NCBI RefSeq assembly: GCF_949628265.1
Contig: NC_088790.1
Span: 28,276,545 to 28,340,544, forward strand
Source of the DNA: Cloeon dipterum
Lineage: Eukaryota > Arthropoda > Insecta > Ephemeroptera > Baetidae
Length of the DNA stretch: 64,000 bases
Direction of reading: 5' to 3'
Below, piece after piece: positions 28,703-62,762 of the stretch. Numbering within the stretch: the first letter of the stretch is position 1; every line of letters begins with the position of its first letter. Under the pieces are notes generated by a model. It was not told the origin of the DNA and did no database searches. It was given only the letters and a program-made list of their open reading frames with translations. A program made the translations under genes and the position numbers.

Positions 28703-31700
28703 TCAATTCCACTGTTTGCACGACGTCAAAAAGGACCTGTCAAATTCACACAAAAATGCGGCAACATCCGCTTCAGTTTCATTCTCCAATCTTAAACTAC
28801 TTCGCACAATTAACACAAAATCATTTTCAACATCATGATCGAAGTAAAGAAAATCAGATAATTCCTCTTTTGGTTCAGGTGTTAGAGGTGGGTAAGACTT
28901 ATCAAGCAAATAACTTTCTGGAAGCTCTTCTGAGGTGCTGCACCAGCGATATACATTTTTAGAGTCAACGTAAGATTCATCCAGCAGAACCATCTCAGAC
29001 ACTGATTAACAAAAGTTAAAAATTATCCAAATAATAAATTGTAAATTCACATTTAATCGAGAAAAAGTCGCTCTTGGTTGCGTTGCGCAAAAATTTGTTG
29101 AGAAGTTTCAACCTTGCGAATTTGGATTCTGTTACTGTGAGAAGGCTTCCGTTGGCTTGAGCACACTTGGAGGCTGCAATCAACGGAGGATAGCGCTGTA
29201 AATGAATGAAAATATTCAAATCGTCCAATTTAAATAATTAAAATTTGTTGAAATGCCTTTTCTTTGTCTACGATTTTATACAAGAATACGTTTTCCACAG
29301 GAGTTGGTAAAAAATTGTTTTCTGCAATAATAAAAATGTGTGATTGATTACAATCTTGTTTATTTTAGATTACTTGTTGCCGCGCAAGTATCCTTCAGGG
29401 TCAAAGTTTTTGGCCGCAAATATTGATAGGTGCAAGGTGAGCTGCAAATCATGTCAGTTTTAAATATTTCTGATTTTTCTTGTGGACGTTATGATGTTTA
29501 ATATGTATGTCATGAAAGAGAATGGATGCATTTCAACGCTTTTTGGAAATATAGTAGTATCGATATTTTCTGCAAAACCAATAAATTGAAAATCTCTGTA
29601 ACGCTAAAAATTATTCCACTGTCCGCTGTTCACACAGAATCCAGTGAATGTTTAATTTGAATTAAATTTATCGTCTTGAGTGAAAAAGAAACAAGTTGCT
29701 ACTTTCCTGAACATTTAATAAACTATTATTTACGGAATAAATTTTATGACTAATCATTAAAAAATTGCTGTTTGCAAAAATATAATTTTTTGGAGGAAAA
29801 CCCCCCAAAAATCCTGATATTTAAATTTAAATCTATGATAAAATTATGAATATATAGACCAAAATATTTTTCTTTTTAATTTTTATTTAATACAACCCTA
29901 GTAACAAGGATTTTATGCTTTTATCTGATTTAAAAACAATTTCACGCGTTTAATTTATAAATGGAGTAATTTTTCCTTCTCCGAAAGATTTTATCTGGGT
30001 TTGCTAAATATATCCTTACCTGATCACTTCCTCTGAGTACGATATTTTACTCACGACCTTCGTATATCGTCTGAGTTCCACCTCTGGATGTTTCAGTTAA
30101 CAATTATTCTAGAATTTGCGTTTAAAAATGTCACCTGTTGAAGTCTGGCTTTCCATAAACACTGTCCTATAATCATCTGGTGCAATCATTTTGCTGTAGT
30201 CTCTTGGGTCGAATTTGTCATGGAAATCTTTATTCCAGAATTTTTCTAATAAAGCAGATCCATTCGTAAAGCATTTGATGAATGCGTGGACGAAAGAACA
30301 CTCTCCTTGTGGTTTTTTGACTTTCACTGATGTCAATAAAAGATTTTTCTCTTAATCACAGCTTATTAATTTGTCAAACTTTTCTGGTTGCATTCCCAAA
30401 ATTTGTCAAGGGCCTCGTTCACAAACAGGGTTGATTTCCAAGCCTGTTCTTTCTCTTGTTCATTCTTGATCATTTTAAGTGTATCAAAGTTATCCGCTCC
30501 TTTCTTGAGCAGACTCATAGAGAATGTATTTGCAATTGAACGAAAATCTAAAAAATAAAAAAATAAAATACGTTTGCTTCGCCTTTTTAATCTTTTTACC
30601 CTCATAAACTTGAGTTATATAAACAGCGCTCAATATTTTTTCTACCCTCTCCTCCCAAATTTTACTTCCATCGTACATCTGAAAGAAATATTAATTTAAC
30701 TTAATAAAACTGTTTGATAAATACCAATTCAAGAAGTTCAGCCATGCAAGCCGAAAAACACTGATGAATAAAATTAGTTACAAAAGAGTACAGTGCATGA
30801 AAGAATATAAATACTTTCATTTTGTACGAATAAGTGTCTACATCCGCAGTGTTAAATTTGTCGATATCTTCTGAATTGTATAAGGTGTTAGTGGTCGCAA
30901 ATAATTTAATTTATTAGAAAAATTTACTCTGCGTGATGCGGTGGGTCAATTTGCATTCGTTAAAAACTTCTTGCAGATGGGATTCTGCTTGAACGCGCCC
31001 CTTGAATATTAAATCAAAATATTAGAATCACGAAAAGGGACAAACTATTCAATTACCTCGCAAATAATCTTCATTTCCTTTTCACAATTCTCAACCTTTA
31101 AAATAGTATTTCCAAGCGAAATACTATGCACTTTCACGCACAAAATGTTGTAACCTCCTGAAACTAGATATAACGATTTTAAATTACTTCGATCGAAAAT
31201 AAATTATTTATGCGGACCAAAATTTGCTGGCAGATTTTCGTTAAAATATCCACTTTGTTTCACGAAGTCTTTGAATTCAGTTGAGCACCATCTAATTTTT
31301 GAAGAAATTAATTTTCTATTTATTTAGAATTGAAGTGTCGGTACCTGAATCGATTATTCTCACATCCAGAGTTGGTGCCTGATGTCCAGTATTCGGTATT
31401 CTCCTCGAGAAAACCATCCAGGCAAGCCAACTTTTCATAAGACTGGACAGAGACGAGACGCATTCCCATCGAACAACAAGAAGTTAGAGCACGATACCAA
31501 GACATCTATGAGCAAAATGTTAACGGAAATGTTAGTGAAGTTTCAAGCAGAATACGCAATTATGAATAGTACTTGGTTAGTTTAACTCGCCTTCTTGCAA
31601 TATTTTTCTTCAGATATAATTTTTTTTAAATTTTAAAATCCATTATATTTCAATCATGATGATTATTTCATGTATGCTAGACGCCAATTATCAAGACGAT

Positions 31701-34497
31701 TTGATAGGCAGCAGGAAATTTTAACGTTTTTAATTATTTTTAATTTTATTTAAAAAAAAACTAATAAGAATTTTATTTACTCGTGATTGTAAGTTACCTT
31801 AAAACGATTTAATAATAATTATTCTATAAAATATTAGTTTTAAAAAATTAAATTATTACTTTTAAAATTAATTTTTTTAATAGTTTATAATGTAATTTAA
31901 TTTACAATTTTAAAATATATTTTTAAACTTTCATGTGTATAATAATATTAAATTATTTGTTTTTGCCAAAGAAATTCTGCACACAATTTTTATCATTAAT
32001 GGATACAATTACGATAATTACGTAAATTGGACATAGACACAACGACGCATGTAATGTGTTATTATGGTTTATTATTAAACTTTTAACATCACTCTCGACG
32101 GCAATAGGTATTGCGAAAACAATCAAGTGAAAAATTCAAGCTTTATAGCACTCCCAAATTCAGAAGGTACACATTTTTTAAAAAAAAATGTTTACTTACG
32201 ATTTCATCAGATATAAACAATCGGACCCCGCAAGTCGTTTTCCACTTGCCTTTCAGTTTGGATAACTCTTTAAAACAAACAAATTATTATTAAAATATTC
32301 AAGCTACACGAGTAAAATTACTTAATAAAACCCATTCCTCGTTTTCAAACTTTGCCAAGTTCGGAACCTAGATTTTATTTTTATTATTAGATATTTCAAC
32401 AGTCTTAACTAGAAAAAAATTTTACGGCAGGCGTGCAATATTCATGATCTGCACAGAAGGGCAGATCACAGAAATTAACTGTTTCTAACTAGAAATTAAA
32501 TACTTTATTAATTTATTGTTATTTTCTAAATTTATTTACTTCTGTTCCAATATTTATTTCTGAATTGACAAAATCCGCCATCCTCGCGTTGTCTTTCTGA
32601 CAGGCGAAATTTGCCGTGGGGGATGAGCACTGCACCTGGCGCACCCCGAACGGCGCCCCTTTCGTGGCGTACTGCCGGTCGACGACCAAACAGGAGCCAC
32701 TGTCCCGCGGGTTGACCGTTTCCCAGAAGCTGTCCTGCGAGTCCCACGGGCCGACGTCGTCGTGCATGCAAAAGCGGTAATGCCCGATGCACCCCTGCCG
32801 CGTCGCAGCCGTCCAGAAGGAAGTCTTTATTAATTTGCGGTCCTCCGTTGTATTTTCTAACAATAAGAAATTTGTGGATAAACGAACTTAAAGGGAAGCA
32901 ATTTAATATTTTTTTTTAAATTATAAATTAATATTTTTTGTATGATTTACAGGTTCTAAATTAGGATTTTTTTATTAAAAAAAACATCGCTCACGAATTT
33001 TTTCGAAAATGTAGAAGCTGCCATGCGCAATGTTTTTAGAGTTTAGTGTTGCAAGAAGCTCATCTGTCACTCTGATCGGCTTCATTCCAATGCTGCAGCA
33101 AAACTTCATGTTTTCTGCCCAAGTTACCTGGAAATTAATTTATTCTAATGCTTTTCCTTGCAACATTTTTATTAAAGTACTTTTTTGTTTCCAAATATCA
33201 TGGTTGTGTAAGAGACCGACTCAACACCCAACTTTTTCCTCCATTCTGTCCACACGCCATCCAGCTTGTTTCCTTTTTTATTGTCAAATTGAAAAATTTC
33301 CTTTTAACACGGATTCAAAAATTTATAAAGACAACAAAATATTTACGGTTTAACTTAATCCTTGTGTCATCAAAGTACGTCATCTTTTTTTAGAAATTTA
33401 CTATCAATTGGTTAGAATTTAAAGATATTCTTACATCGAGTTCACAGGTCCTCAAGCAGAACACTGTTTTGCACTTGTACTTTGTGAGTTGATAAAATTA
33501 AAATCCTATAAGCTTTCAATAAAAATGAAATACTTCGCAGAAGAAATAATTTCGCTCGGTGCATTCGGACCGAATGAGAGTTTTAGTCATCAAGGAGAGT
33601 GCGAGACACCTTTGCTTCCGAGACACTCCCGTAATTTCTTTGGAGAGACCAAAAGCAGAGGCATTGATGCGTTTCCGGTCGCCGGCGCACCACGAGTACG
33701 CCGCGTTTCCGCAGCTCTTCCCTTCGGCCATTCCGCTCGTCCAGATGAAAAAGTATTCTGATATTTTAAAATATTTTTATCAGGAACCACCGCATATTGT
33801 ATTTGCTACGGTTTTTTTGTTCATCGATGGTCGTCTGGTTTACGTCGGACACGAGGCAATTCAAGTTTTCTTCTCGATCTTCCACTGCCACCAATTGCAT
33901 TCTACGTTTTGCACACACGACGGCAGCTTCCCCAAATTTAGCCTTTTTATTACAAAAATTATAAAACCATTTAAATAATTCAAATGGAACGTCGAACTTG
34001 GCTCTGGCTCCTGTAAAAGAGATGGCCGCATTTGAAGACTATGTTACCCAACTCGATATTGTTTGCAACAAATGACATTAGAGAAGCTAAAATATGAACT
34101 CTGAGCAAAAAACGAAAGCAAAATTAATTTCACTAATTAACTCACGTGAGTCAAATACTGAAGAGAAATCTGTCAAATTTTCTTATTTTAATCACCGAAT
34201 CGAACATGGAATTTTATTACCATCTGCAAACGCCGAAGCGAGGAAATTCTTTAATTGGAAATTTAATTTAGATATTTATCTTAAATAGCTGAGCATTCAA
34301 GCTACCTTCAATTTTGAATCGTAAATAGAGCAATCTCCAGATGAACATTTTTTCAATTTAACTGCTTTCGTGGTGGATGCTGCTGCTTCTGCACGCTTTA
34401 GGAGCAAGAATAAATAAAAACGAAGGCTCTGAAATACAAATTTTACGTTCAGCTGCAAGGTGGCAAGGCAAAAGAATAAAATCGCAGAATAGATCAT
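28703..34497 (-). CDS. L1: secreted multi-CTLD protein with an OBP-like domain
   Basis: 29 exons from high to low coordinate: 34447-34497, 34306-34395, 34221-34248, 34146-34169, 33998-34086, 33810-33942, 33534-33757, 33435-33479, 33347-33383, 33181-33272, 32995-33127, 32540-32856, 32426-32488, 32322-32367, 32200-32267, 31345-31505, 31218-31291, 31057-31157, 30928-31000, 30815-30870, 30725-30760, 30600-30678, 30380-30547, 30135-30326, 30020-30083, 29374-29441, 29257-29321, 29051-29195, 28703-29001. Every phase agrees; 3,021 nt, 1,006 residues. Signal peptide 1-17; CTLD1 about 65-213 (WTSGMAEGKSC, FFCE); CTLD2 about 241-410 (WAENMKFCCSIGM, FWTAATRQGC, ANFACQKD); CTLD3 about 460-592 (CCSMGMRLVSVQS, WTSGTNSGC, ICE); OBP-like about 593-793, cysteines 608, 636, 640, 726, 739, 748; CTLD4 about 818-1006. 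No membrane helix follows the signal, so it is probably secreted. No EPN/QPD calcium motif is seen, so sugar binding is not assured. One intron uses a GC donor. Confidence 0.85.
29442..30019 (-). other. Long intron 25 of L1
   Basis: AT-rich intron of 578 bases. The same long version is in L3 (about 43490-44055), whereas L2 has only about 70 bases here. Nothing coding is seen. Confidence 0.5.
31506..32199 (-). other. Long intron 15 of L1
   Basis: Very AT-rich intron of 694 bases between the two halves of CTLD3. No repeat or ORF is recognised. Confidence 0.45.
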
Positions 34498-34720
34498 TTT
34501 GATTTTGCCAGAAGCAAAATCAGATCAAAGCGCAACAGCGCACTGAACGATTGGAATATTGCAGATCCACTAACTAGGCGAGTGGAAATGACGTTGAATT
34601 TAATGAAGTTTATGTATTGTGTGCCGTTTCACAAAATTCAATATACCTTCAATTCTGCTAACTAAAAAGTTATATACCGGAACTGATTTATATATCAAAG
34701 CTTACCCAGCACTTGCCGGC
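34498..34720 (-). promoter_or_regulatory. Upstream region of L1
   Basis: About 190 bases before the L1 start codon are nearly identical to the region before L2 (41027-41225), including GTATATAAC near 34670 and TTCAGTGCGCTG near 34545. The identity shows recent duplication; core promoter elements are only guessed. Confidence 0.45.
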
Positions 34721-35770
34721 TAGAAAATGTAACGAATGCTAACGCTCAGCAGATTCAAATACTGGCTTGCAACACTACGAAATTGCTTATTTGGTGAAAT
34801 ATGTATGTAATTACTTTCAAGAAATTGAATTCACGTAATATTTATGGTTCTGTAGGGCTATTCTTCCCTAAACATTGCCAAATCCAGTTAAAAAATAGAA
34901 AAAATTATCAAAAAGAGGGTGAGAAGTAAATTAAACTGGCATTTTGAAAATTCTAAAGTTCTCATTATTTGGTGGGAGCTTTTAGTTTTTCAATACCTCC
35001 TTCCCTTGTAGTTTTTTCCTTAAATTTTCATTTCCAGTCAATGTATTAATTCCTTTTTTGGGTGCCACAGCGGAAGAAGAAGCAGAAATAATGGTAGACA
35101 TTCCCTGTTCGTGGAAAATCTATCATCCCTCGAGTTTTTTTTACCGTTGCTTCACTTCTGTACTTAGGGCTCAGTTTCATAAAAAAAACACTTGCTCTAC
35201 GCAACAATATCCGAGAATATCAAGGGTTGATAAATTAAAAATTAAAATTGAGACTCTGATCGCCAATTTGATAAGCTATAGCTAACAATTTTTTATTTAT
35301 TTTATCAATTTGTAATCAGAGGGTATCAACTTAAATAGTATTGTCCACACACACTAATCTCAGAACATCAAGAATCCCAGGTCGAATGTAAACAAATATT
35401 TTTGTTGCACCGTACCACCTAATGAACAGAAATAGGGGAAAATATCTAACAATAAGAGATAATGAAACCCACTCATGTTGTTTGTGGGGTGCAGGCTGCA
35501 GAAGAAGTGTTATTTTTATCATGCTTGAGAAAAACAGTTTTCTATTGCACTAAATATAAATCAAAATTAAGATATCAATGCAGTTAATTATTTATATCAT
35601 TCCAAGGAATCAACCACAACCATAGAAGATTAAGAAATACACGAAGATAGGATAATGAGATAAACTTTCACAATACGTTACACGTAAATTTTAAATTTTA
35701 AAAATTGCTTTGCTAATATTTCATAAGAAAAAATGGTAAAGCAAACAATATTATACATACTTTCAGCCTT
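34721..35770. other. Intergenic region L1-L2
   Basis: Contains the gene E exon copy at 35030-35350, then a copy of the E/L1 boundary flank (AAATATTTTTGTTGCACC at 35394; ATTTTTATTGCACC near 28304). No intact gene. Confidence 0.55.
35030..35350 (+). pseudogene. Copy of the last exon and 3' UTR of gene E
   Basis: GTATTAATTCCTTTTTTGGG then GCCACAGCGGAAGAAG closely follows the intron end and exon 6 start of E (27838-27880). Later GAGACTCTGATCGCCAATTT matches the E 3' UTR near 28128. The acceptor AG has become GG and the coding part has deletions and stops. It is a dead fragment carried along when the lectin unit was duplicated. Confidence 0.75.
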
Positions 35771-38700
35771 TCATTTCCCCATTTTGCACGACGTTAAAAA
35801 GGACTTATCGAATGCGCAGAAAAATGTGGCAACTTCCTCATCATTTTCATTGTCCATTGTTAAGCTACTTCGCACAATTAACACGGAATCATCTCTAACA
35901 TCATGATCGAAGTAAAGAAAATCAGATAATTCTTGTTTTGGTTCAGGTGTTTGAGGTGAGTAAAGCAGTTCAGGCTGTTTAAGCAAATAACTTTCTGGAA
36001 GCTCTTCTGAGGTGCTGCACCAGCGATATACATTTTTAGAGTCAACGTAAGATTCATCCAGCAGAACCATCTGAGACACTGATTGAAAAGGTTAGAAAAT
36101 CTAAAAATATTAAATAGTAAATGCACCTTTATCCATAAAGGATATGCTTGTGGATACGTTTCGCGAAATTTTGTTGAGAATTTTCACGCTTGCGACGTTG
36201 GATTCTGTTACTGTGACGAGGCTTCCGTTGGCTCGAGCACACTTGGAGGCTGCAATCAACGGAGGATAGCGCTGCAAATTTATAGAAAGATTCATATTGG
36301 CAAATTGTTTAATTTATTTTGTTCGTGCCTTTTGTTTGTCGACGATATTATACATGAAAATGTTTTCGACGGGAGTTGGTAAAAAATTGTCCGCTGGATA
36401 AATTAAAACATGTCATAGCTTAACATTATTTTGTAGATTCTAGATCACCTGTTGCCATGCAAGCTTCCTTTAGGGTCAAAGTTTTTGGCCTAAAATATCG
36501 ATAGGTGCAATGTGAGCTGCAAATTTGGATCACATTAAAATCACCAACTAAAATCCCGGTTTTTAGGGTTTATTGAATGTAACCTTGCTTACCTGATCAC
36601 TTCCTCTGCGTAAGATATTTTACTCACGACCTTCGAATAGCGTCTGAGTTCCGCCTCTGGATGTTTAAGATAACAATTTTGGTTTTTGCATTGTAAAAAT
36701 GTCACCTGTTAAAGCCTGACTTCCCAACCCATACACCACTGTCATATAATCAGTTGGTGACACCATTCTGCTGTAGTCTCTTGGGTCGAATTTGTCATGG
36801 AAATCTTTATTCCAGAATTTTTCTAATAAAGCAGATCCGTTCGTAAAGCATTTGATGAATGCGTGGACGAAAGAACACTCTCCTTGTGGTTTTTTGACTT
36901 TCACTGATGTCGATAAATGATTATTCTCTTATCACATATTATTATTAAAATTGCCAAACTTTTCTGGTTGCATTCCCAAAATTTGTCGAGGGCCTCGTTC
37001 ACAAACAGGGTTGATTTCCAAGCCTGTTCTTTGTTTTGTTCATTCTTGATAATTTTAAGTGTATCCAAGTTGTCCGCTCCTTTCTTTAGAGGACTTATAG
37101 AGAATTTATTCGCAATTGAATAGAAATCTGAAGAAAAAATACAAATAAGAAAATAGTTTTGCTTTCTCTTCTTAGTTTTTACCCTCAGAGCCTTGAGATA
37201 TTTTAACGGTGCTCAGCAATTTTTCTACCCTCTACTCCCAAATTTTACTTCCATCGTACATCTGAAAGAAATATTAATTTAACTTAATAAAACTGTTTGA
37301 TAAATACCAATTCAAGAAGTTCAGCCATGCAAGTCGAAAAACACTGATGAATAAAATTTATTACAAAAGAATACAGTGTCTTAAAAGAGCACTAATACTT
37401 TCATTTTGTAAGTATAATTGTCTACATCTGCGGTGTTAAATTTGTCGATATCTTCTATTGTAAAACACGTTAAAAGTCGCAGAGAATTTAAATTATTAGA
37501 AATTTACTCTGCGTGATGTGGTGGGTCAATTTGCATTCGTTAAAAACCTCTTTCAGATGGGATTCTGCTTGAACGCGGCCCTTGAACATTAAATCAAAAT
37601 ATTAGAATCACGAAAAAGGACATAAAAACTATTAAATTACCTCGCAAATCACCTTCATTGGCTTTTCACAGTTCTCAACCTTTAAAATTGTACTTCCAAA
37701 CTTAAAATTTTGCCCTTTCACACAGTACTTAATATTTTCTCCTGAAACAAAAAATAAATTATTGTTTGAACAAGAAATTTGTAATTTCAGCCAACCAAAT
37801 TGAGAAGCACTCGCTGGTAGACTTTCATTGAAATATTCACTTCGTTTAACAAAGTCTTTAAATTCAGGCGAGCACCATCTAATTTTTAACTATAATTAAA
37901 AAAATCCTTGAAATTCCAATTTTTAATATTATTGACCTAAACCGATTATTCTCACATCCAGCATTGGTGCCTGATGTCCAGTATTCTGTGTTTTCCTCGA
38001 GAAAGCTTTCCAGGCAAACCAGCTTTTCATTAGATTGGACAGAGACGAGGCGCATTCCCATCGAACAACATACCATAAGAGCACTACTCCAATCCATCTA
38101 TGAGCAAAATGTTAACGAAACTGTTACAGTAAAGTTCTATGCAATATATTCTTGCAATATATTCCTCAGTGTGCTGTATTTTGTAATGTACCACCAGTCT
38201 AAAGCTAAGCTTTCAATCTAGCATTGCTTTGGAGTTACCAATGGATGATTGTTTTTATAGGAAAAACTTAAAAATCAATTGCTCACTCTCGGTGGCAATT
38301 AATGCGATTTGCGTAATTAATCTAGTAAAAAATTGAAGCAGATGCTTTTGTGGCGCCTCCTCGCCACTACTTTGCATTTAACCTGTATCGCCAGGGGGCA
38401 GTATTAAGGTGTGCGACAAGCAGTGCACCCTTACTGCACCTTCAGTCACAGCAATAATTTCTCTCTCCGGCTAGGATGAGATTTGGTGCGAGAAAATTCT
38501 AAAAAACTATTTCATATAAGACCCACACTACGGGGTAAGTTGTAATAATTGTTAATATTTGAATGGGATATTTTTATTGTTATAATTATTTGTTGTAAAT
38601 GTGATTTTGATTATTTATGTGTTTTAAAGTCTTGATTACTAATACTTCAACCACGAGACTTGAATAAAAAACGAATAATTGCACTACTAAAAGACACATT

Positions 38701-41026: not shown

Positions 41027-41225
41027 TTTAATTTTGCCAGAAGCAAAATCAGATCAAGTCGCAACAGCGCACTGCACGATTGGAATATTGCAGATCCACT
41101 AACTAGGCGAGTGGAAATGACGTTGAATTTAATGAAGTTTATGTATTGTGTGCCGTTTCACAAAATTCAATATACCTTCAATTCTGCTAACTAAAAAGTT
41201 ATATACCGGAACTGATTTATACATA
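41027..41225 (-). promoter_or_regulatory. Upstream region of L2
   Basis: Near-identical to the sequence before L1. It diverges sharply beyond about 41225, which marks the end of the duplicated block. Confidence 0.45.
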
Positions 41226-41782
41226 TATCAAAGCATACCCACGCGCTGAACTAGAACGCAGCGAATGCTAACGCTCTCAACAGTTTCAAAATCAACGGCA
41301 TAATTTTAAAGTGACAAAATTAAAGCCATCAGTTGAGTAGATTTGGCAAAAAAATTATCTGAAACTGACTAATAATATTAAATTCTCTAGAAGCGTTTAT
41401 TGCATTGTAAAAAGGTAGGTCACGGGCGCATCGAATGCGACTTCGGGCCCCCTTTGTCAGTGTAACAGTGCCTGAGCAGTGCTTCCAAGTCATTTGTTAT
41501 CGCCTGTGGAACAACCTGTCGCCGAATCTGTGTATGAATGGGAACTCAAGTGCATTCAAACAAAAACTGAGCCAAACATTTCTTGCCAAATACTGATATG
41601 ATAGACTGATTTTACTATTCCCTCTGTTATCAAATACAAAACAAATGCTTTGTTATATTTTTGTTAAGTTCTGGATGTGGATGTATGGGGCACAGTTGCC
41701 CTGCTGATCCGTAATAAACCAAATTTGAATCTAAAAAGCCAACTTGAGAACTTTTTGCCTGCGACTATGACTCTAATTTTAA

Positions 41783-42201: not shown

Positions 42202-42372
42202 TTTTGACTTATTTTTTGCTACTTTAAAGACTCAAACGCGTTTTTTTAATAATTTATCTACAACAGCGTTTAAACTCAACCTTAACGTATAATCACATTA
42301 AAAATCAAGTAGACGTAAGTGGAGGTCTGCCAATGAGAGCAGATCTTGCTTAAACGCATGAAGGACTTAAAG

Positions 42373-42718: not shown

Positions 42719-45700
42719 TCAATTCCACTGTTTGCACGACGTTAAAAAGGACCTATCAAATTCACATAAAAATGCAGCAACATCCGATTCAGTTTCATTC
42801 CCCCAACTTAAGCTACTTCGCACAATTAACACAAAATCATTTTTAATATCATGTTTGAAGTAAAGAAAATCAGACAATTCCTCTTTTGGTTCAGGTGTTA
42901 GAGGTGGGTAAAGCAGTGGAACCGGTTGTTGCAAATAACTTTCTGGGAGCTCTTCTGAGGTGCTGCACCAGCGATACACATTTTTAGAGTCCATGTAACT
43001 TTCATCCAGGAGAAAAAACTCAGACCCTGATTAACAAAAGTTAAAAATCATATAAAAATATTAAATAGTAAATTCACCTGTATCCGTGACAGATCTGCTT
43101 TTGGTTATGTTGCGTAAGAATTTGTTGAGAATTTTCAAGCTGGCGATTTTGGATTCTGTTACTGTGAGGAGGCTTCCGTTTGCTTGAGCACACTTGGAGG
43201 CTGCAATCAACGGAGGATAGCGCTGCAAATGAATAAAAAGGTTCAATTTGTCCAATTTAAATCATTAAAATTTGTTGAAATGCCTTTTCATTGTCTACGA
43301 TTTTGTACAAGAAGACGTTTTCCACAGGAGTGGTTAAAAAATTTGCCTCTGCAACAATAAAAATGTGGGATTGATTACAATCTTGTTTATTTTATTGTAT
43401 ACTTGTTGCCGCGCAAGCATCCTTCAGGGTCAAATTTTTCGGCCTCAAATATTGATAGGTGCAATGTGAGCTGCAAATCATGTCATATTTAAATATTTAT
43501 TAGTGTTTTTTTTTGTGTGGACGTTATGATTTTTAATATGTCATGAAATGAGAATGGATGCATTTCAACGCTTTTTGGAAATTAAGTAGTATCGATAATT
43601 TCTGCTAAACCAATAAATTGAAAATCTCTGTAACACTAAAAATTATTCCTTTTTCGCTGTTCACACAGAATGCAGTGAATGTGTAATTTGAATTAAATTT
43701 ATCGTCTTGAGTGAAAAAGAAACAAGTTGCTACTTTCCTGAATATCATGTTGAACGTTTAAAAAACTATTATTTACGGTTTAAATTATACGACTAATCAT
43801 TAAAAAATTACTGTTTGCAAAAAAATTATTTTTTTTTGCAGGAAAAGAACCCCATAAATTTGATATCCTTATATATTTAAATTTCAATCTAGGATAATAA
43901 ATAGGAGTAGACAAAAATATACATATTTCTATTTAATACAAACCTAGAAATTAGGATTTTGTGCTTTTTTTCTAATTTAAAAACAATATTGGATTTAGAA
44001 ATGGAGTAAATTTTCCTTCTCTGAAATATTTTATCTGGGTTTCCTAAATATATCCTTACCTGATCACTTCCTCTGAGTACGATATTTTACTCACGACCTT
44101 CGTATAGCGTCTGAGTTCCTCCTCTGAATATTTAAGATAAAAATTTTGATTTTACATTTAAAAATTGTCACTTGTTGACGTCTGGCTTTTCATCATCACG
44201 GTCGGATAATCAGTTGGTGACACCATTCTGCTGTAGTCTCTTGGATCGAATTTGTCATGGAAATCTTTATTCCAAAATTTATCCAATAAAGAAGATCCGT
44301 TCGTAAAGCATTTGATAAAGTCGTGGATGAAAGAACACTCTCCTTTTGAATTGTAGACTTTCACTAATGCCAATAAATATTATTCTCTTAAATCATTGCT
44401 TAAATGAAATTGTCAAACTTTTCTGGTTGCATTCCCAAAACCTGTCGAGGGCCTCGTTCACAAACAGGGTTGTTCTCCAAGCCTGTTCTTTGCTTTGTTC
44501 AGTCTTGATAATTTGAAGTGTATCCAAGTTGTCCGCTCCTTTTTTAAGTAGCCTAAATGAGAATTTACTTGCGATTGAAATGTAATCTGAAAAATTAAAA
44601 AGATGAGTAAAATTATATTCATCATCATTTGTACTTTTACCCGCGTAGTCTTGAGATGTATTCGTTGTGCTAAGTATATTTTCTATCTTCTCCTCCCAAA
44701 ACTTACTGCCATCGTACATCTGAAAAAAATGTTTCTGACTTATATGGACTTAAAAAAATACAATTACCAGTCCAAGAAGTTCAGCCATACACGTCGAAAA
44801 ACACTGAATACGAATATTTTAATTTAATATTAAGTGGGTTTGCTAAAGGCTGCACCAATACTTTCATTTTGTACGAAAAACTGCCCAAGTCAGCGGTGTT
44901 AAATTTGTCGATTTCTCCTATTATCGAAGTTTTATTGGTCAGAATATTGAAATCATTATAAATAAATGCTACTTTGCGTGACGCGGTGGGTCAGTTTGCA
45001 TTCATTAAAAACTTCTTGCAAATGAGATTCTGCTCGTACGCGGCCCTTTATCAAAGCCACAAATGATTTAGAACCCCCACTAAATGAAAACAATTTTATA
45101 TTTACTTCGCAAATGAACTTCATTTGCTTTTCACAGCTTTCAACTTTCAAAATGGAGTTCACCAACTTGACGCAGTACTTATTTCCTTCTGGAACTGAAA
45201 AAGTTTTGAATTTAATGCTTAGAAACTAATAATTTCTTTAAGCTGACTAGGACTAGTTTCATTTCCTGGCAAACGTTCGTTAAAATATTCATTTCGTTTC
45301 ACGTAGTCTTTAAATTCAGTTGAGCACCATCTAATTTTTGAATAAATTAATTTTCTATTTATTTAGAATTGAAATGTCGGCACCTGAATCGATTATTCTC
45401 ACATCCAGAGTTTGTGCCAGACGTCCAGTATTCGTTATTTTCCTCAAGAAAACCTTGCAGGCAAAGCAATTTCTCATAAGACTGGACAGAGACGAGACGC
45501 ATTCCCATCGAACAACAATAAGTTAGGGCAAGAGACCAATCAAACTATAAATTAAGTTTTAAATGAAAATATTAAAAATACATATCAATTGCTGATAAAA
45601 TAAGGAATAAAACTTGGTTGCAATTTCATTCTGGGGCAAGCGGCGAGAGAAAATACTAAGAAGAGAATTACAGTCGATGAGTCAACTCACAATATAATCT

Positions 45701-49349: not shown

Positions 49350-52300
49350 TCAATTCCTCTTTTTGCACAAAGTTAAAAATGACTCATCAAATGCGCAGAA
49401 AAAAACGGGAACGTCAAATAAATTGTCATCTTCAGACATAATGCCGCTTTGCATAAAGTACATGGAATCAAATTCAGCGTTATAATTTACGTAAAGATGA
49501 AAGGGATTCTCTTGCATTGGATCAAACAAAGATTTGGGCATCTCCTCTGAGGTGCTGCACCAGCGAGTAACGTTTTCGGAGTCCAAGTAAGTCTCATCCA
49601 GGAGAATCGAGTTGGAATCTGAGATTGTATTACTGTAAAATCGATCATTTCAACAAATATGTATTATTATATTCACATAAATCCGAGGCATCATTAATGA
49701 GTGGACCGCTCTTGGTTGCGTTTCGCAATAATTTGTTTAGAATTTTCAAGCTAGAGATGCTGGATTCTGTCACAGTGACGAGGCTTCCGTTTGCTCGAGC
49801 ACACGTGGCGGCTGCAAAAAACGGAGGATAGCGCTGGAAATAATTACAAAAAGATTAAATCATGCAAATGGTTTGTTTGTTTAATTAAAACCTCTTCTTT
49901 GTTGACCAGTTTATACATAAAAACGTTTCCCACGGGGGTCGGTACGAAACTTTGCACTTTATTTTTGTTTAATTGATTAAAATATGTATACAGTATGTAT
50001 TTTCGTTTACCTATCGCCAAGCAAGCTTCCTTGAAAGTCAAAATTTTCGGTCGCAAATATCGGTAGGTGCAGCGTGAGCTGGAAATTTCATCTTATTTAA
50101 ATTCTTTTTGGCAACTCTCCAAATTATTTCTTGAAGATTTCTTAAATTGTAAAATAAATGACATTAAAAATCATTTTCTGGTCTTATTATATTACCTGAT
50201 TACGTCCTCTGCATAGGATATTTTATTTACCACCTGTACATATTTTCTGAATTCCGATTCTAGATTTTTAACGATACAAAATTGTTGAGTTTTGTTTTTT
50301 TAAAATGATTATCTTACCAGAAAAATTGAGGCTTCCATTATTGTTCATTATTGCACTCATTGCCACCATTCTGCTGTAATCTCTTGGATCAAAAATGCTG
50401 CGGAAATCTTTGTTCCAAAATTTTTCCAGTGAATCAGATTTATTTGTGAAGCATTTGATGAAGTCGTGGATGAAAGAACACTCTCCTTTCGAATTATAGT
50501 CTTTCACTAGGAAAATAAAAAATAAATCTGCATCACAACGTTTATGAAAGTGTCAAACTTTTCTGGTTGCATTCCATAAATTTATCGAGGGCCTCGTTTA
50601 CAAACAGGGTTGATTTCCAAGCCTGTTCTTTGCTTTGTTGATTCTTAATCATTTGAAGGGTATCCAAATTATCCGCTCCTCTCTTGAGTAGGCTCATTGA
50701 GAATTTATTTGCAATGGAACGAAAATCTAAAAAAATAACAAATAAATAATTTTGCTTCCACGTCTTCTTAATTTTCACCCTGATAGACTTGAGATACTTT
50801 AACAGTGCTCAGCAATTTTTCTATCCTCTCCTCCCAAAATTTACTTCCTTCATATATCTGAAAAATTACACATTTTTAAGGAGATGTCTTTAAAGCTGCA
50901 TTTATTACCAATCCCAGAAGTTGTGCCATGCATGTTGAAAAGCACTGAATAAGAAAAGTAATATTTACTATTGGCTATTTAAAAAACCAACACCAATACC
51001 TTCATTTTGTAAGAAAAACTGTCTAAATCAGCGGTGTTGAATTTATTAATTTCATCTAATATATGTGCATCAGTTAAAATTTTATGAAGCACAAGGAAAT
51101 CTTACTCTGCGAGACTCGATGGGTTAATTTGCATTCGTTATAAATTTCTTGCAAATATGATTCCGCCAATACACGACCCTTTATTATATTTTTATTCACC
51201 TTAAATCAAAAACACAGTTGAAGGATTTATGTTATTAACCTCGCAAATCGCTTTCATTGACTTTTCACAGCTCTCAACCTTTAAAATTGAACTTCCAAAC
51301 AAATTTTGCGCTTTCACGCAGTACTTATTAATTTCTCCTGAAACGAAAAAATTATTATTTTTTTAACAAGAAAGATTTACTGGGTGCTAACCAAGCTTAG
51401 ATGGATCTGCCGTTTGACTTTCATTAAAATATTCACTTTGTTTAACAAAGTCATTAAATTCAGGTGAACACCATCTAAATGTAAATAAATAACTAAAATA
51501 TCCACGAAATTCCAAATTTTAATAACAGAGACCTGAATCGGTTGTTTTTACATCCAGAGTTGGTGCCTGATGTCCAGTAGTCGGTATTTTTCTCGAGAAA
51601 GCCATTCATGCAAGCTAACTTTTCGTAAGACTGGACCGAGACGAGACGCATTCCCATCGAACAGCAAAAAAATAGAGCATCACTCCACATCATCTATTTG
51701 AGAATATATAAATCAAATCTCCCTACCACAGCATAACATAAAATAATCGTCAATTGGTAAACTCACGTGATCTGTAGTAATAAAAAATCGAATCCCGCAA
51801 GACGTTTTCCACTTGCCGTCCATCATACAGAGCTCTTTATTTAAACCAAATTTTATTCTAGAAATAACATAATATGTGAACTTACTTAGTATAACCCACT
51901 CTCCATTTTCGTATTTTAATGGCGGATTCTAGATTACGACAGATAAAAAATATTATAGGACAAACAACGCTGTAAGAAAAAAGCTAACTGCTGCATAGCA
52001 ATACGGTTGCTCTGTTACACAGTACGGTAGATCACAGGCAATATCAGCCTTCTGGCAGTTCAGATATTATATTTTATATTAGTCTTAAAACCATATTTTA
52101 CAACCTCTTTCTCCACGTTCCTTTCCAAAGTGACTAAATCAGTCATCCTATTTCCGTCTTTCTGACAGGCGAAATTTGCAATCGGGAGCGAACACTGCAC
52201 CTGGCGCACCCCGAATGGCGCCCCTTTCGTGGCGTACTGCCGATCGACCACCAAACAGGAGCCACTGTCCCGCGGGTTCACCGTGTCCCAGAAGCTGTCC

Positions 52301-54771: not shown

Positions 54772-55084
54772 TTCACTTGAAACTGACCCATAAAACTCTA
54801 AATTACAAAGCAAAAGAGAAAAAGCAATGATTTTAGGGAGGAATTAAAAAATAATTTTTTGAGCAAAAGATAATATTAAATAGATAATTTAACATGGCAT
54901 GCTACGTTTAAAACAGTAGCAAAAAATTAATAAAATACAATTTTATGATATAACACATGCCACACAAAAGGGGCTGGAGTTTTCATGAATAAATAAATCA
55001 TTCCTTTAAAATGTACAGATTTAATCAATCGTTATAATTTGCGGTCACACCAAGTCGAGGAATTTTACCTGGAGGACCAAAGCA

Positions 55085-55120
55085 TGCAACCTGCCCGTCG
55101 CACGAAGCGTGCAAGTTGCA
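55085..55120. repeat. Nested hairpin motif
   Basis: TGCAACCTGCCCGTC, then GCACG AAG CGTGC, then AAGTTGCA: an outer stem TGCAAC/GTTGCA and an inner stem GCACG/CGTGC. Repeated at 63056-63091. Confidence 0.6.
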
Positions 55121-55124
55121 CCAG

Positions 55125-55440
55125 AGAACTGCTTCAGGAATAATTGGATCCAACAAAATTTTACTTTTTTAAACGTGCCTCTGTCTGGAACTACACTGGG
55201 AATCAAATTATTGGTTTAGCGAGTCCACTCGGTGAAACCTGATTTAAAATTTTTATGCGAGCAATGTTGGATTCAGTCACTGTGACGAGGCTTCCGTTTG
55301 CTCAGGCGCGCGTGGTGGCCGCTACCGACGGAGGATTTCGCTGCAAAAGGGAAAAATTGGATAAATACTCATCCAAAAGGATAACTCAAGATATTTTACA
55401 CTTTCTTTTTCAGTGGTTTTAAACATTAACACGTTTTAAT
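55125..55440 (-). pseudogene. Relic of lectin C-terminal exons
   Basis: At 55340-55260 the minus strand reads like exon 28 of L4 and L5 (ANGSLVTVTESNIARIKIL), but TGA replaces the first cysteine codon. A piece of exon 27 (NVLMFKTTEKE) lies at about 55435-55405. The rest of the gene is gone. It is a dead fragment of a former sixth lectin copy or of a duplication end. Confidence 0.7.
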
Positions 55441-56288
55441 CGTGAAGAGAAACGTACATTAACTGTGTTCGTGGTCGAAGCCGCAAGCTTTTTGTTAGAG
55501 GAAAAAGAAAGAGGCGAGTCTACGTTCAGGATTCACAATTTTATCGCAAATTCATTTCGGAATGCAACAGTATTGAAAAGTTTTTAAAACGCATTTTTCA
55601 GCCTTTTGCGAAGCCGCAGTCTGGTTAAAAGGACGTGACGCTTGCTCGCTTTAATTAATTTTGAATTGCTCTCTTCCACAAAATTTATTGTATTGTGACG
55701 TTCATTCTGCTTTCTGGGAAGTTTGAAATGATGCTCATTCCATGGGTGTGGCAACCGTTCTCTCTGCAACACCACGAAAAATGTTATGCCTGGCTGTTCC
55801 CTGAAACTTACGGTCCACGCAGAGCCGGGAGGGCTGTCCGACGTAAAGAGCACTCTCCGTTGCCGCCACTGCCGCCGATCTATCTCTATTTAATCTCTCT
55901 ATCTGCTGCTGGGACAAGCCATTATCAAAAGCCCCTACTCAATATTACTAATTCTGCCTTGCTTATTATTATATTTGCTCTCTTTAATTATCCTTTTTTC
56001 TTTATTCTCCGTGATGTAGAAATATGAAGACTCAACTGAATAAATTTTAATTTGTTGATTTTTGAAGTAAATACCAGGCATAACTAAAGCAAATAAAACA
56101 CAGCCAAAGAATTTTTTCATTTCTTTAATCCTAATTTCGAAAGAGGCGAACCAAAAAATCCCACAACCTGGAAAATTGTAACACGCAATGGAAATAATAC
56201 GACCATCTGCCGAAATTGTATTTTCCCTCATTGAGCTCTAAATTATAACACGAATAAAGATGAAAGCAAAACATTTTTTTACTCTCTT

Positions 56289-59200
56289 TCAATTCCTCTT
56301 TTTGCACAGAGTTAAAAATGACTCATCAAATGCGCAGAAAAATGTGGCCACGTCACATATATTTTCATCTAGGTAGACAATGCTGGTTAAAATAGCCACG
56401 GAATCAGTTTCAACGTGATAATTTAGGAAGAGATAATAGCTTATATCTTGGTATGGTATAAACAAAGAGCTGGGAACCTCCTCTGAGGTGCTGCACCAGC
56501 GGGTAACGTTTCCAGAATCCAAATAAGTCTCATCCAGGAGAATCGTGTCAGGAACTGAGATTAATTTACACTAAAATCGATCATTTCAACGAATATTTCT
56601 TATTATGTTATACCGAAATCCGTGACATAATCATTGTTCGAACTGCTCTTGGTTTCATTCTGCGAAAATTTGAAAAGAACTTTCATGCTAGAGATGTTGG
56701 AGTCTGTCACTGTGACGAGGCTTCCGTTTGCTCGATTACATGTGGAGGCTGCAACCAACGGAGGATAGCGCTGAAAATAATTACAAAAAGCTTAAATCGT
56801 GCAAATGGTTCGTTTATTTATATTATTGATAATACATTTTCTTTGTTGACCAGTTTATACATAAAAACGTTTTTCACGGGAGTCGGTACGAAATTTTCCT
56901 CTGTATTGGTATTCAAGTGTTTTAAATATCTGCAGTATGTATTTTCGTATACTTATCGCAAAGCAAGAATCATTTAAAGTCAAAATTTTCGGTCGCAAAT
57001 ATCGGTAGGTGCAGCCCGAGCTGGAAATTTCTTCTGATTTAAAATCTTTCTGGCAATAACTCTCCAAATGCAAACCAAGATTAAATTAAATAAAAAAAAT
57101 TTCACAAATTGTCCTGGTGCCAGTAATATTTTCGAAGAGTATCACCATTTTTGAAAAATTGAAATTTTCCAAAGTTTCTAAAAGTTTCATAATTCCATAA
57201 ATTTTCTCAGAAATTTTGGCTAACTTAAAATTTAACGAGAGTTTTTCCTGTAAGATACGTCCCTTTTTCCCCTGAGCATTTGTGATTGTAGCGGCGCAAC
57301 AATCAACCGGGGAGGGAAGAAACCAATTAGGGTTCTCTTCCCCCACAGCCAAAGTTAATGCCATCGTTGCAATTTTTTGATCAGGCTCCGGGGCCGCGAG
57401 CTAGAGTGGTCGTTGAATTCTGGAAGACCCAAACTTTATTTTCCTTGTGGCAGAAAAGGACAACAATTAACTTCAACAGTTAAAATTTGAACATTTGTAG
57501 AGCTATATGCAACATTGTACCGGCACCAGGACGAAATTGTCAAACATCAGAAAAATCATATTAATTTTGAAACAATGTGAATATTTAAAGAGGAATGATA
57601 CTGCAAAAGCCAGGAAAATGCTTGTTGCCAATGCATAAACTCGTCCCTTAGGATTCAGTTAAAGTCTAAATTGACCCAAGAAGCGCTGTAATTTTTTGAG
57701 AAAATTGGCTGGAAAGTTAGCGTGCTTTTCAAATGGCAATGGCTGTCTCCTTACTTGAAATCCGATTTAATTTCAAAACCAAGAGTTTCCCCAATAAGTG
57801 GCATACACAATTGGACAGATCTGGACGAGAGGAATCGGAATATGCCAAGAAAATACGTTCAAGCACTGTAAATCTTGGAGAAAATTGGCAAAATTTGAAT
57901 TTTACTGTAGGAACGTCTTTTTTATTATTGCAAATTGTTGAACAAATTGTTTATCGGTCAATTGTTTAAGGCATCCAACAAATTAAATAATTTTCAATTG
58001 TTGCCCAGTATCATTCCACTTTAATTCTTAAACCAGATTACCTGATTACTTCCTCAGCATAAGATATTTTATTCACCACCTGTAAAGATATTCTGCTTTC
58101 TGAATAACAGTTGTTTATATTGATATGATAAGTTTTTTATTTCTTAAAAAAAAAGTTTATTTTACTGGGATTTGACAGAAGACCATACACGAAATCCATT
58201 GGCTTCATTCTGCTGTAATCTTTTGGATCGAATATGCTATGGAAATCTTTGTTCCAAAATTTTTCCAGTGAATCAGATTTATTAGTGAAGCATTTGATGA
58301 AGTCGTGTATGAAAGAACACTCTCCTTTCGAATTATAGTCTTTCACTAGGAAAATAAAAATTAAATCTGCATCACAACTTTTATGAAATTGTCAAACTTC
58401 TCTGGTCGCATTCCCAAAACCTGTCGAGTGCTTCAGTTACAAAAAGGGTCGATTTATAAGCCTGTTCTTTGCTTTGTTGATTATGAATCAATTGAAGGGT
58501 ATCTAAATTATCCGCTCCTCTCTTAAGAAGACTTAATGAGAATTTATCTGCAATTGCACGAAAATCTAAAAAAAAAAATAAATAAAAAATAAATATTTCG
58601 CTTCCGAATCTTCTTAATTTTTACCCTGATAGACTTGAGGCATTTTAAAAGTGCTCAGCAATTTTTCTATCCTCTCCTCCCAAAATTTACTTCCATCGTA
58701 TATCTGAAAAATTACATATTTTTTAAAGGAGACGAGTAAAAAGATGCAATTATTACCAGTCCCAGAAGTTCTGCCATGCATGTTGAAAAACACTTAATAG
58801 GAAAATATTTTTACTCTAAGGCCTGGCAAATTAAAAACAACACTAAAAACCTTCATTTTGTAAGAAAAACTGTCCACGTCAATGGTGTTGAATTTACTGA
58901 TATCTCCTGACCTCTGTTTGTTATTTAAAATTTTTGAAGCTAAAGAAAATCTTACGCTGTGAAACTTGATGGGTTAATTTGCATTCATTATAAACTTCTT
59001 GCAAATACGATTCTGCCATTACACGAACCTTTTTTTTTATTATTTTTCCTTTTGTCAATAACCACGTAGTTAAAGTACATATTTTTTGTGTTATTTACCT
59101 CGCAAATTGCCTTCATTGGCTTATCACAGCTCTCAACCATTAAAATTGTACTTCCCAGCTTAAAATTTTGAGCTTTCACGCAATACCAATCAATTTCTCC

Positions 59201-62200
59201 TGAAACAAAAATAAATTTTATTTTGAAGAAGAAAGATTTAATGTATGCTAACCGATCTTAGAAGCATTCGCTGGTAGACTCTCGTTAAAATATTCACTTT
59301 GTTTAACAAAGTCATTAAATTCAGGCGAGCACCATCTAAATTTTAACTGATTTAAAAAAAATCCTTTAAATTCCAAATGTTTATATTATCGACCTGAATC
59401 GGTTATTTTTACATCCAGAGTTGGTGCCCGACGTCCAGTATTCGGTATTTTCCTCGAGAAAGCTATTCATGCAAGCTAACTTTTCGTAAGACTGGACAGA
59501 GACGAGACGCATCCCCAACGAACAACAAAAATTTAGAGCTGCATTCCAATTTAGCTAGAAGAATTTATATCTATGTTATATAAACAAATTGCAGTAGAAA
59601 TTGCATGAATAATCAATAGTGCGTTACTGGCGAAAAGGAAAACCAGAGAAATCCATAAAATTCATCCTTGTCGAAATCGACAACTGGATTTTTAGACTAA
59701 TCGCTCAAATCTTGATTTAAAAAATAACTGATTGTTTGCAAGGGGGTTGTAATGCCATTAGATTTGATGCGGTCTTCGATTTTTTAATTATTGCGTGCTG
59801 TGCCCTTTGCATCGAGAGTGGTCCAGTCCGCAGCCTCTGCCGCACGCACAAAGTCTTCATCTAACATTCTAGAGTGCACTCTTTTTCACGCTCATTGTCC
59901 TGTTTTTGTAATTTTTGGAGAAGGAATGCATTCCACCCGCCGAATTCTTTAAGCGGAACGAAATGTAGCTAACACTTGGTAAACTCACTCACTTGATATG
60001 TAGGGATAAAAAATCGAATTCCACAAGACGTTTTCCACTTGCCCCCCAGCAGAGAGAGCTCTTTAACAAAATCAAAACTAATTTTAAATATAGTAAAGTT
60101 TATATATAATACTTAGTAAAACCAGTTCTCCATTCTCATATTTTGATGGGGTCACGGTCTATATAATGAGAAATAGAAAAAATATCGGACAGAAGGAAAG
60201 AAAAAAGCAAACTGATGGCATGCAATATGGTTGCTCTGTTGCACAGAGTGGTAGATCACAGGCAGTATTAGCATTCTGCTAAACCAGATATTATATTTTT
60301 ATATATTAGCAGAAACCATATTTTACTACCTCCATGTCTGCGTTCCTTTCCAAATTGACTAAATCCGTTATCTTATTTTGTCCGTCTTTCTGACAGGCGA
60401 AATTGGCAATTGGGACTGAGCACTGCACCTGGCGCACCCCGAACGGCGCCCCTTTCGTGGCGTACTGCCGGTCGACGACCAAACAGGAGCCACTGTCCCG
60501 CGGGTTCACCGATTCCCAGAAGTTGTCCTGCGAGTCCCACGGACCCACGTCGTCGTGCAAGCAAAAGCGGTAATGCCCGGCGCACCCCTGCCGCGTCGCA
60601 GCCGTCCAGAAACTCGTTCTAATCAACTTGCGGTCCTCGGTTGAGTTCTCTTCAAGTTGAATTTTAGAATAGGACATTTTTCAAACATTAAATCTATGAT
60701 TTCTTGTTTCTCGTGCTAATCAAATAAATTAAAAAAGAAATAAAATTCAAATCACCAGTTTTGTCGAAGATTTGGAAACTTTTATATGATATTCCAATCG
60801 AGTTTAGCGTTAAAAGAAGCTCATCCGTCACTCTGATGGGCTTCATTCCAATGCTGCAACAGAGCTTCATGTTCTCTGCCCAAGTTACCTTGAAATTAAA
60901 ATATTTTGAAATTTTTGAAATCCATATTTAAAATAAAAATACTTTCTTTTTTCCAAATACCATGGTCGTGTAAGTCATCGTATCAATTCCCGATTTCCTA
61001 CTCCATTCTGTCCAAACTCCATCAAGTTTGTTACCTTTATGATTGCCAAATATTGAATTTTATCGAGTCAACCTAATTAAACTTAAAAAAAGCTCAAAAA
61101 TGTTTAAGTACATATTGCCATTCATGATTTATCGTCTGGAAAAATATTGTTTTTAAATTTACTATATTTTCCATGCATAAAAATTAAAAAAGGCCAAGTA
61201 AATAAGAAAAAGATCACACTCTGAATTGCTTTGCAGCGAGGAAAATTAAATTAAGATGGTCAGCTATTTGAAATAGTATTGTACACATACTCTTTTCGGT
61301 TTTTACTCAGAAATGGTAAAGATTGACGTTTTCGATTGCTGATTCGGAAATCTTTTGCAGCAAATAATACAGTTATGCATTTTCTTTTGGATGTAAATTA
61401 CTGCTGATGATATATCTGTTGCGAAAAAGTGTCATTTGAATTTTCCTCATAAATTTGTCACGAATATAATTTAATTTTAAAATCAAGAATTAAATCAGGT
61501 ATGTCCATGCTTTACTTCCTTGTTTTAAGAGTGAATTTGTAGTTGACTAAAACATCATTCAAAAGATAATTTGTTAAATAGGTACTGTTTATCCTGTTCC
61601 CTGTTTCTTCAAAGTACGCCATCTAATTGTACCGGGACATTAAAATTTGTCTAAATTTAAAGAATTCCATACATTGGTTTCACACGTCTTCAAATAGGGC
61701 ACCGTTTTGCATTTGTACTGCGTATATAGTTAAACATTAAAATAATTGAAGCTTATAGCGTTTGAATTAGAATAAAAATACTTCACAGATGAAATAATTT
61801 TGGTCGGAACAGTCGGAGCGAAAGAGAGTTCTTGTCTTCAAGGAGAGTGCGAGACACTTTTGCTTTTGAGTTATAGAAGTCGCCGTGATTTTCATGGGCA
61901 AGTGGAATGCCGACGCATTGATGCGTTTCCGGTCGCCGGCGCACCACGAGTACGCCGCGTTTCCACAGCGCTTCCCTTCGGCCATTCCGCTCGTCCAGAT
62001 GATCAAGTATTCTATATGTTTCAAATTTTCATTAAGTGCTTTATTTTCTCCACCAATATGAATTTACTGGGGTTTCTTTGTTCATAAATTGCGGTCTGGT
62101 TTGCATCAGGTATGAGACAATTCAAGTTTTTCTCTCGATCTTCCACTGCCACCAATTGCATTCTACGTTTTGCACACATGACGGCAGCTTCCCCAAATTT

Positions 62201-62762
62201 AGCCTATTTTATTGAATATAATTTAAGCTTTTTAATTTCAAATGGAGCGTTTTTTTAACATACTTGGCTCAAGCTTCTATAAAAAAGGTGACCGCACCTG
62301 AAACCGACATCTCCCAGCTCGAGATTGTTTGAGACAAAAGAAATAATAATTGCATCTAAAATAAATAAATATTCAAATCAGAGAACACTAAAAATTAATT
62401 TAACACACGCACTCGCGTCAAACACTGATGAAAAATCTGTTTAAATTTTGATTTTGTTCAATCTAAATTTAATTTTAACCAAAAACTTTACCCTCTGCCA
62501 AAGCAGAAGCGAGGAAATTCTAGAGTGTGTACTATTAATTTAAATAACCTCTAGTTGAACATTTAAAGTACCTTGATTTTCGAATCGTGGATAGAGCAGT
62601 CTCCTGAAGTACATTTTTGAAGTTGCACAGTAGCTTTTGTGGTCAAAGCGGCGTGCTTTGAGGAACAGTAATTTAATTGAGGATCTTTATCATAGCAAGA
62701 GAAAAAAAATTTACGTTGCGTGCTGGAAAGATCAAGCAGAGGAAAATCGCAGGCAGGATCAT
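56289..62762 (-). CDS. L5: secreted multi-CTLD protein with an OBP-like domain
   Basis: Same exon order as L1. The signal exon starts at 62762 (MILPAIFLCLIFPARN). CTLD1 about 61780-62350. CTLD2 about 60330-61620, with the GC-rich exon about 60340-60652. CTLD3 about 59100-60170 (CCSLGMRLVSVQSYEKLACM). OBP-like about 58180-59030: NECKLTHQVSQ, CFSTCMAELLGL, DGSKFWEERIEKLLS, FWECDQRS, GECSFIHDFIKCF. The exon near 58040-58085 precedes an intron of about 1 kb that hosts the TTAA-type element. CTLD4 56289-57050, ending FFCAFDESFLTLC. All exons read are open. An extra intronic insertion lies at about 59600-59990. Confidence 0.78.
57060..57588. other. Insertion part of the long intron 25 of L5
   Basis: L4 has only about 100 bases here. 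The stretch 57100-57420 is GC-richer and holds a 92-codon minus-strand ORF with no recognised domain. Possibly an old insertion. Confidence 0.35.
57589..58020. mobile_element. TTAA-type non-autonomous element, copy 2
   Basis: Ends AGAGGAATGATACTG and CAGTATCATTCCACT are inverted repeats (14 of 15 match). The element is exactly flanked by TTAA on both sides (57585-57588, 58021-58024). It is 432 bases without a transposase and lies in an intron of L5, reversed relative to 41783-42201. Confidence 0.85.
59600..59990. other. Insertion in an intron of L5
   Basis: A GC-richer stretch (CCAGTCCGCAGCCTCTGCCG) that the same intron of L4 lacks. Origin not recognised. Confidence 0.35.

Follow-up and report, generated by a model that had tools for sequence, protein, structure and literature searches.

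Architecture of five tandem genes

The DNA analyzed here is a stretch of 64,000 nucleotides from the mayfly Cloeon dipterum (C5:28276545-28340544), referred to below as the window. It contains five tandem genes on the minus strand, L1 to L5, each resolved into 29 exons by DNA alignment combined with exon-by-exon reading. A first-pass annotation of the sequence had placed the array at 28703..62762, and these limits match exactly the end of the last L1 exon and the start of the first L5 exon. Every copy has the same domain order, namely, a hydrophobic leader, three C-type lectin-like domains (CTLD1 to CTLD3), an odorant-binding protein (OBP) domain, a linker, and a putative degenerate CTLD-like unit 4 (Table 1). 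The models thus predict a CTLD chain with an embedded insect OBP domain within single genes of C. dipterum.

Table 1. Features of the five genes in the window
Feature	Position in window	Strand	Observations
L1 gene	28703..34497	-	29 exons, 1007 aa, open
L1 unit 1, CTLD1, E2-E7	33534..34395	-	Lectin_C 22.2 bits alone; hhalign to unit 3 96.5%
L1 unit 2, CTLD2, E8-E11	32540..33479	-	hhalign to unit 3 98.9%; no Lectin_C match alone
L1 unit 3, CTLD3, E12-E17	31057..32488	-	Lectin_C 33.5 bits alone (cut-off 22.6)
L1 OBP domain, E18-E23, enlarged C3-C4	30135..31000	-	PBP_GOBP 40.4 bits; introns; profile alignment
L1 linker exon E24	30020..30083	-	Kept in 5 copies, phases matching
L1 unit 4, putative degenerate CTLD-like, E25-E28	28703..29441	-	Phases 1-0-1; undetected by Pfam
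L2 gene	35771..41026	-	1013 codons; in-frame TAG at 37234-37232
L2 OBP domain, contains stop codon	36706..37580	-	Exon model
L3 gene	42719..48155	-	1004 aa, open
L3 OBP domain	44172..45045	-	PBP_GOBP 40.3 bits
L4 gene	49350..54771	-	1003 aa, open
L4 OBP domain	50318..51178	-	PBP_GOBP 34.8 bits
L5 gene	56289..62762	-	999 aa, open
L5 OBP domain	58166..59028	-	PBP_GOBP 35.1 bits

Splice phases are the same across the five copies, and all 28 internal exon borders in each copy are GT-AG or GC-AG; GC donors occur at E6 in L1, at E12 in L3, and at E26 in L1, L2, and L3, and the remaining borders are GT-AG. The reading frame is open from start to stop in L1, L3, L4, and L5. L2 is open except for one in-frame TAG in OBP exon E21. 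This copy may have become a pseudogene recently; alternatively, the stop may be a variant carried by the sequenced individual or a mistake in the assembly. L3 and L4 have their start codon 12 bases farther upstream than the site that aligns with the start codon of L1. After the first exon there are 44 cysteines in L1, L2, L3, and L5 and 45 in L4. The hydrophobic leader, the cysteines, and the lack of a membrane segment as judged by eye suggest secretion, and the proteins are probably secreted.

Identity of the OBP domain

Scanned against Pfam, the assembled 1007-aa L1 protein scored above the cut-off for both PBP_GOBP (34.0 bits; cut-off, 22) and Lectin_C (E = 1.1e-11, in three stretches). Isolated OBP segments of L1, L3, L4, and L5 also exceeded the PBP_GOBP cut-off (Table 1), and the best stretch spans profile positions 7 to 78 of 113. 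All 14 OBP segments scanned at E values up to 1 matched PBP_GOBP, the best with an E value of 3.2e-13. An alignment of 14 segments, with identities to L1 as low as 28 to 30%, has 11 invariant columns, six of which are the cysteines. A profile built from the five OBP segments of the window matched the OBP 5dic in the PDB (E = 1.6e-4); the three other matches listed (E = 0.29 to 0.82) are unrelated. By hhalign, the domain aligned over residues 14 to 161 with a small OBP alignment, consisting of two sequences from the PDB and three from the C. dipterum genome, at 96.7% (E = 4e-10), with all six cysteines paired and a gap in the C3-C4 interval that takes up most of the extra residues. NCBIfam gave no match for three L1 segments.

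The six cysteines of the L1 domain lie at residues 609, 637, 641, 727, 740, and 749, one residue off the numbering first given, and the spacing C-x27-C-x3-C-x85-C-x12-C-x8-C is unchanged and is present in all five copies, L2 included. Insect PBP/GOBP proteins usually have 36 to 46 residues between C3 and C4. The proposal that this interval is longer here is upheld by a spacing of 85 in the five window copies and of 85 to 92 in 17 rows of the genome-wide alignment described below. These 17 are the rows, out of 29, that cover the whole OBP domain; the 12 left out begin or end inside the domain or, in the case of C3:3.62, do not belong to the family. The six cysteines were retained in 25 of 25 copies with a complete domain (5 in the window, the 17, and 3 further ones), and so was the spacing C2-x3-C3 and C5-x8-C6. 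The lengthening of the C3-C4 interval by approximately 45 residues is a fixed trait of the family. A chance cysteine pattern is ruled out by the Pfam matches, the profile alignment, and the intron positions.

Lectin-like units

Taken alone, unit 3 exceeded the Lectin_C cut-off and unit 1 fell just below it (Table 1), and a Lectin_C match was absent in all five unit 2 segments. Units 1 and 2 each aligned with unit 3 by hhalign, and the probability between units 1 and 2 themselves was 0.5%. Unit 4 gave no Lectin_C match in the four segments tried and aligned with unit 3 at 21.8%. We call it CTLD-like because its intron phases, 1-0-1, are those of units 1 and 2 and because the W-C-S-T motif recurs, and it is doubtful that it represents a degenerate fourth CTLD. 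Of the four CTLDs originally proposed, units 1 and 3 are recovered by Pfam or profile comparison and unit 2 by profile comparison only, whereas for unit 4 there are only the phases and a short motif.

The classic motifs for calcium-dependent sugar binding are EPN/QPD and WND. In a scan for plain letters, irrespective of position in the fold, EPN occurred in 2 of 22 unit 1 segments and no motif was found in 31 unit 2 segments. The 31 unit 3 segments contained QPN once, EPS twice, and WND twice, and EPS occurred once among 11 unit 4 segments. The CTLDs mostly lack the motifs of calcium-dependent sugar binding, which suggests that they might bind proteins or surfaces instead.

A family of related genes across the genome

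The genome of 190.1 Mb (10 contigs) was searched separately with OBP exons E22-E23 and with CTLD2 exon E11. Five contigs (43.2, 37.5, 37.1, 36.4, and 33.2 Mb) account for 187.3 Mb, and 2n=10 is given for this species in an excerpt of PMC6446309. OBP and CTLD2 both matched closely, on the same strand, at 24 loci distributed over six sites. The five copies first counted are all present in the window but understate the array, which continues with two more copies at C5:28342187 and C5:28349204, making a cluster of seven. The other close copies lie on C5 at 32.0 Mb (four), C2 at 6.4 Mb (four), C1 at 33.6 Mb (six) and 40.0 Mb (two), and C4 at 0.36 Mb (one). More distant CTLD2 matches lie on C2 at 12.76, 16.20, and 22.15 Mb, on C4 at 35.15 to 35.19 Mb (six) and 30.99 Mb (one), on C3 at 3.06 Mb, and on C5 at 12.68 Mb. 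Close and distant copies together suggest a family of about thirty genes. The genome searches found no OBP match near the CTLD2-like matches C5:12676148-12676397 and C4:30988570-30988869, which are possible relatives without the OBP part.

A purpose-written splice-aware aligner, which had been checked on L4, was used to compare the loci with L1 and L4. This produced 27 stitched rows, 26 of which align to the family (two being pieces of one gene); the remaining row, C3:3.62, does not belong to it. Fifteen of the 26 begin in unit 1 or 2 and extend into unit 4; these have 22 to 28 exons and 50 to 79% identity. In-frame stops were absent from 20 of the 26 rows, and the other 6 have one or two. Five distant genes (C2:12.76, C2:16.20, C2:22.15, C4:35.175, and C3:3.05), with 31 to 38% identity to L1, have CTLD1 to CTLD3 followed by OBP. 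Unit 4 is poorly modeled in these genes, and there are ten in-frame stops in the C3 model and two in the C2:16.20 model; some of the stops in the models are perhaps modeling errors. The CTLD3-OBP stretch at C2:22.15 Mb scored 34.7 bits for Lectin_C and 37.3 bits for PBP_GOBP, both above the Pfam cut-offs. The distant genes on C2 and C4 form a subfamily with the same architecture, in which the three single genes on C2 are 52 to 56% alike and the cluster at C4:35.15-35.19 has six CTLD2 matches.

One gene or neighboring genes

The intron between CTLD3 and OBP is 56 to 70 nt long in all five window copies and 49 to 63 nt long in 25 of the 27 other rows; of the remaining two, one starts past the junction and the other is the C2:22.15 model, which stopped before the OBP part and was extended later. 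The intron between E24 and E25 ranges from 76 to 1,021 nt in the window copies, so it is the phases and the conservation that link OBP to unit 4. Distances between OBP domains correlated with those between units 1, 2, and 3 (Mantel r of 0.93, 0.95, and 0.91, with n of 15, 22, and 22; 0 of 2,000 permutations in each case). In 10 pairs analyzed by the Nei-Gojobori method, dN/dS was 0.13 to 0.29 for OBP, 0.15 to 0.32 for unit 1, 0.23 to 0.44 for unit 2, and 0.23 to 0.40 for unit 3. Purifying selection acts on the OBP part. Unit 4 is the fastest evolving, with dN/dS of 0.34 to 1.05 and the highest values for the pairs L4-L5 and L1-L2, and its loop length varies between copies.

The exon models were built from homology among copies and with an aligner of our own, and they might in principle have joined CTLD and OBP genes that are merely adjacent. 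Against this stand the correlated divergence of the OBP and CTLD units, an order that is the same at the six close sites and in the distant genes, and the 49- to 70-nt CTLD3-OBP intron, with matching phase, in every informative row, which makes separate neighboring genes very unlikely. We regard the mis-joining of neighbors as highly improbable.

Intron positions and origin of the OBP domain

Three OBP genes that lie away from the fused loci, L067, L001, and L065, were read by eye for comparison; none of them is among the matches of the genome searches with E22-E23 and E11. In L067, which scored 58.5 bits for PBP_GOBP, phase 1 introns follow C1 by 8 codons and C4 by 3 codons, and a phase 0 intron follows C3 by 7 codons. 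In both L001 and L065 a phase 0 intron immediately precedes C2, and a phase 1 intron follows C4, by six codons in L001 and by four in L065. Four of the five internal introns of the fused OBP domain match introns of these genes in both codon and phase, three with those of L067 and one with the pre-C2 intron of L001 and L065, and the fifth sits inside the lengthened C3-C4 stretch. Introns held in common by codon and phase argue for homology and not for mere resemblance, and they speak for descent of the fused domain from an OBP gene together with its introns, rather than for chance or retroposition. A helical domain that is OBP-like only through convergence might be suspected from the long C3-C4 interval and from a Pfam match concentrated in the N-terminal two thirds of the profile; we give this reading very little credence in view of the shared introns, which occur in OBP genes of the same genome, and of a profile alignment that covers C1 to C6. 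Mis-joined genes and convergence both appear nearly excluded. The proposal of an OBP domain with an enlarged C3-C4 stretch between CTLD3 and the last unit is borne out by Pfam, by the profile alignment, by the shared introns, and by the domain order at further loci.

The E22-E23 search returned 62 matches, and each of the 50 with an E value below 1e-3 belongs to a locus that CTLD2 matches as well. No donor gene with an equally long C3-C4 interval and without CTLDs was found among these 50. A weak E22-E23 locus near C4:32.69 Mb proved to be only a two-exon match of 30% identity without OBP landmarks. A genome-wide search with the PBP_GOBP profile listed 4 matches, which are no count of OBP genes, since this search reads exon by exon.

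Relation to known proteins

Classic insect OBPs have six cysteines, with three residues between C2 and C3 and eight between C5 and C6, according to an excerpt of PMC8067015. The fused domain resembles these classic OBPs (PF01395, PBP_GOBP) in its six cysteines, the x3 and x8 spacing, the Pfam match, and the intron positions. It differs from them in its C3-C4 interval of 85 to 92 residues, in the extra intron within the lengthened stretch, and in being an internal domain of a protein of 999 to 1,013 aa (about 1,000 aa in general) rather than a small, free, single-domain secreted protein. To our knowledge, the additions in dimer, Plus-C, and atypical OBPs are of OBP type or are terminal extensions and not CTLDs, whereas the fused genes add CTLDs. 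These groups are nevertheless like the fused genes in carrying an OBP plus extra sequence or domains, two six-cysteine signatures in the case of the dimer OBPs (excerpt of PMC8067015). The fused genes can also be set beside the arthropod multi-CTLD proteins (PF00059, Lectin_C). Those proteins are secreted and have tandem CTLDs with extra N-terminal cysteines, features that the fused proteins appear to share; the latter differ in having an OBP between units, a seemingly degenerate unit 4, and mostly no sugar motifs.

Each domain is known, and we found no description in the open-access PMC literature of the CTLD-OBP combination in one gene, of the lengthened C3-C4 interval, or of a family on this scale. 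PMC7250882, on the OBP expansion of C. dipterum, reports 191 OBP genes from a 180-Mb assembly, with 82 of 167 expressed in gills, and the word "lectin" occurs 0 times in its main text. The fused genes may be among these 191, perhaps listed as plain OBPs, and some genes in the largest reported OBP repertoire may not be ordinary OBPs. For a damselfly, no more than four OBPs are recorded in PMC5381652, where C-type lectins are mentioned separately.

Possible function

We consider it very probable that these genes constitute a secreted chimeric family in which a genuine OBP, captured with its introns and lengthened between C3 and C4, was placed on a CTLD chain in a presumed ligand-binding role. 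The simplest account would be that the OBP domain was captured from an OBP gene, introns included, gained some 45 residues between C3 and C4, and became seated between CTLD3 and the putative unit 4. The CTLD chain would then hold the OBP pocket at the extracellular surface or in the matrix, the putative pocket would carry or scavenge a hydrophobic ligand, and tandem copies would diversify binding. In an aquatic insect this might serve chemosensing near receptors, or defense. That the OBP part is conserved suggests that its pocket, or at the least its fold, has been maintained. Going further, we tentatively propose, at rather less than even odds, a new extracellular ligand-binding class in the mayfly lineage, comprising around thirty genes with an OBP pocket on a CTLD scaffold, acting in water-exposed sensory or barrier tissue such as the gills, with the C3-C4 stretch as a lid or an inter-domain contact.

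OBPs are usually viewed as small free carriers. The fused genes represent the use of the OBP fold as a module in an old, expanded family whose introns testify to an origin from OBP genes; if true, the fusion shows that large extracellular proteins can take up OBPs, and it anchors ligand binding at a fixed location. The fused genes also provide a defined set for studying what OBPs do besides olfaction, in a lineage of winged insects that is among the earliest to branch off.

A much less probable reading, which we consider rather unlikely, is that the OBP domain serves today as a spacer or structural module that binds no ligand, the additional residues having filled or closed its pocket. The constant length of the roughly 45 additional residues would suit such a role, as would their lack of a counterpart outside the fused loci among the E22-E23 matches with E values below 1e-3. 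However, the OBP part is, with unit 1, the most constrained part of the protein, and every complete copy has retained it; this would fit a working pocket and is no proof of one.

It is also possible, and in our judgment comparably unlikely, that the proteins act in humoral defense, with the CTLDs recognizing microbes or damaged surfaces and the OBP part binding lipids or small toxins. Divergent tandem arrays such as these are typical of defense families, a point in favor of that role, which the scarcity of classic sugar motifs weakens. CTLD expansions are, moreover, commonly assigned to immunity, as in a mite (excerpt of PMC6275457). Ligand binding by an OBP pocket on a CTLD scaffold remains our preferred reading.

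Exons adjoining the array

Window positions 1 to 28100, adjoining the CTLD-OBP array, hold repeated coding exons that scored 11.8 and 14.5 against Pfam PSI, under the cut-off of 23.1, and that presumably resemble PLXDC/PSI-type genes. They occur in several copies, lie on both strands, and carry a cysteine-rich block, CPNFRTCxxCxxxx..CVWCPEIKRCSSKKD.
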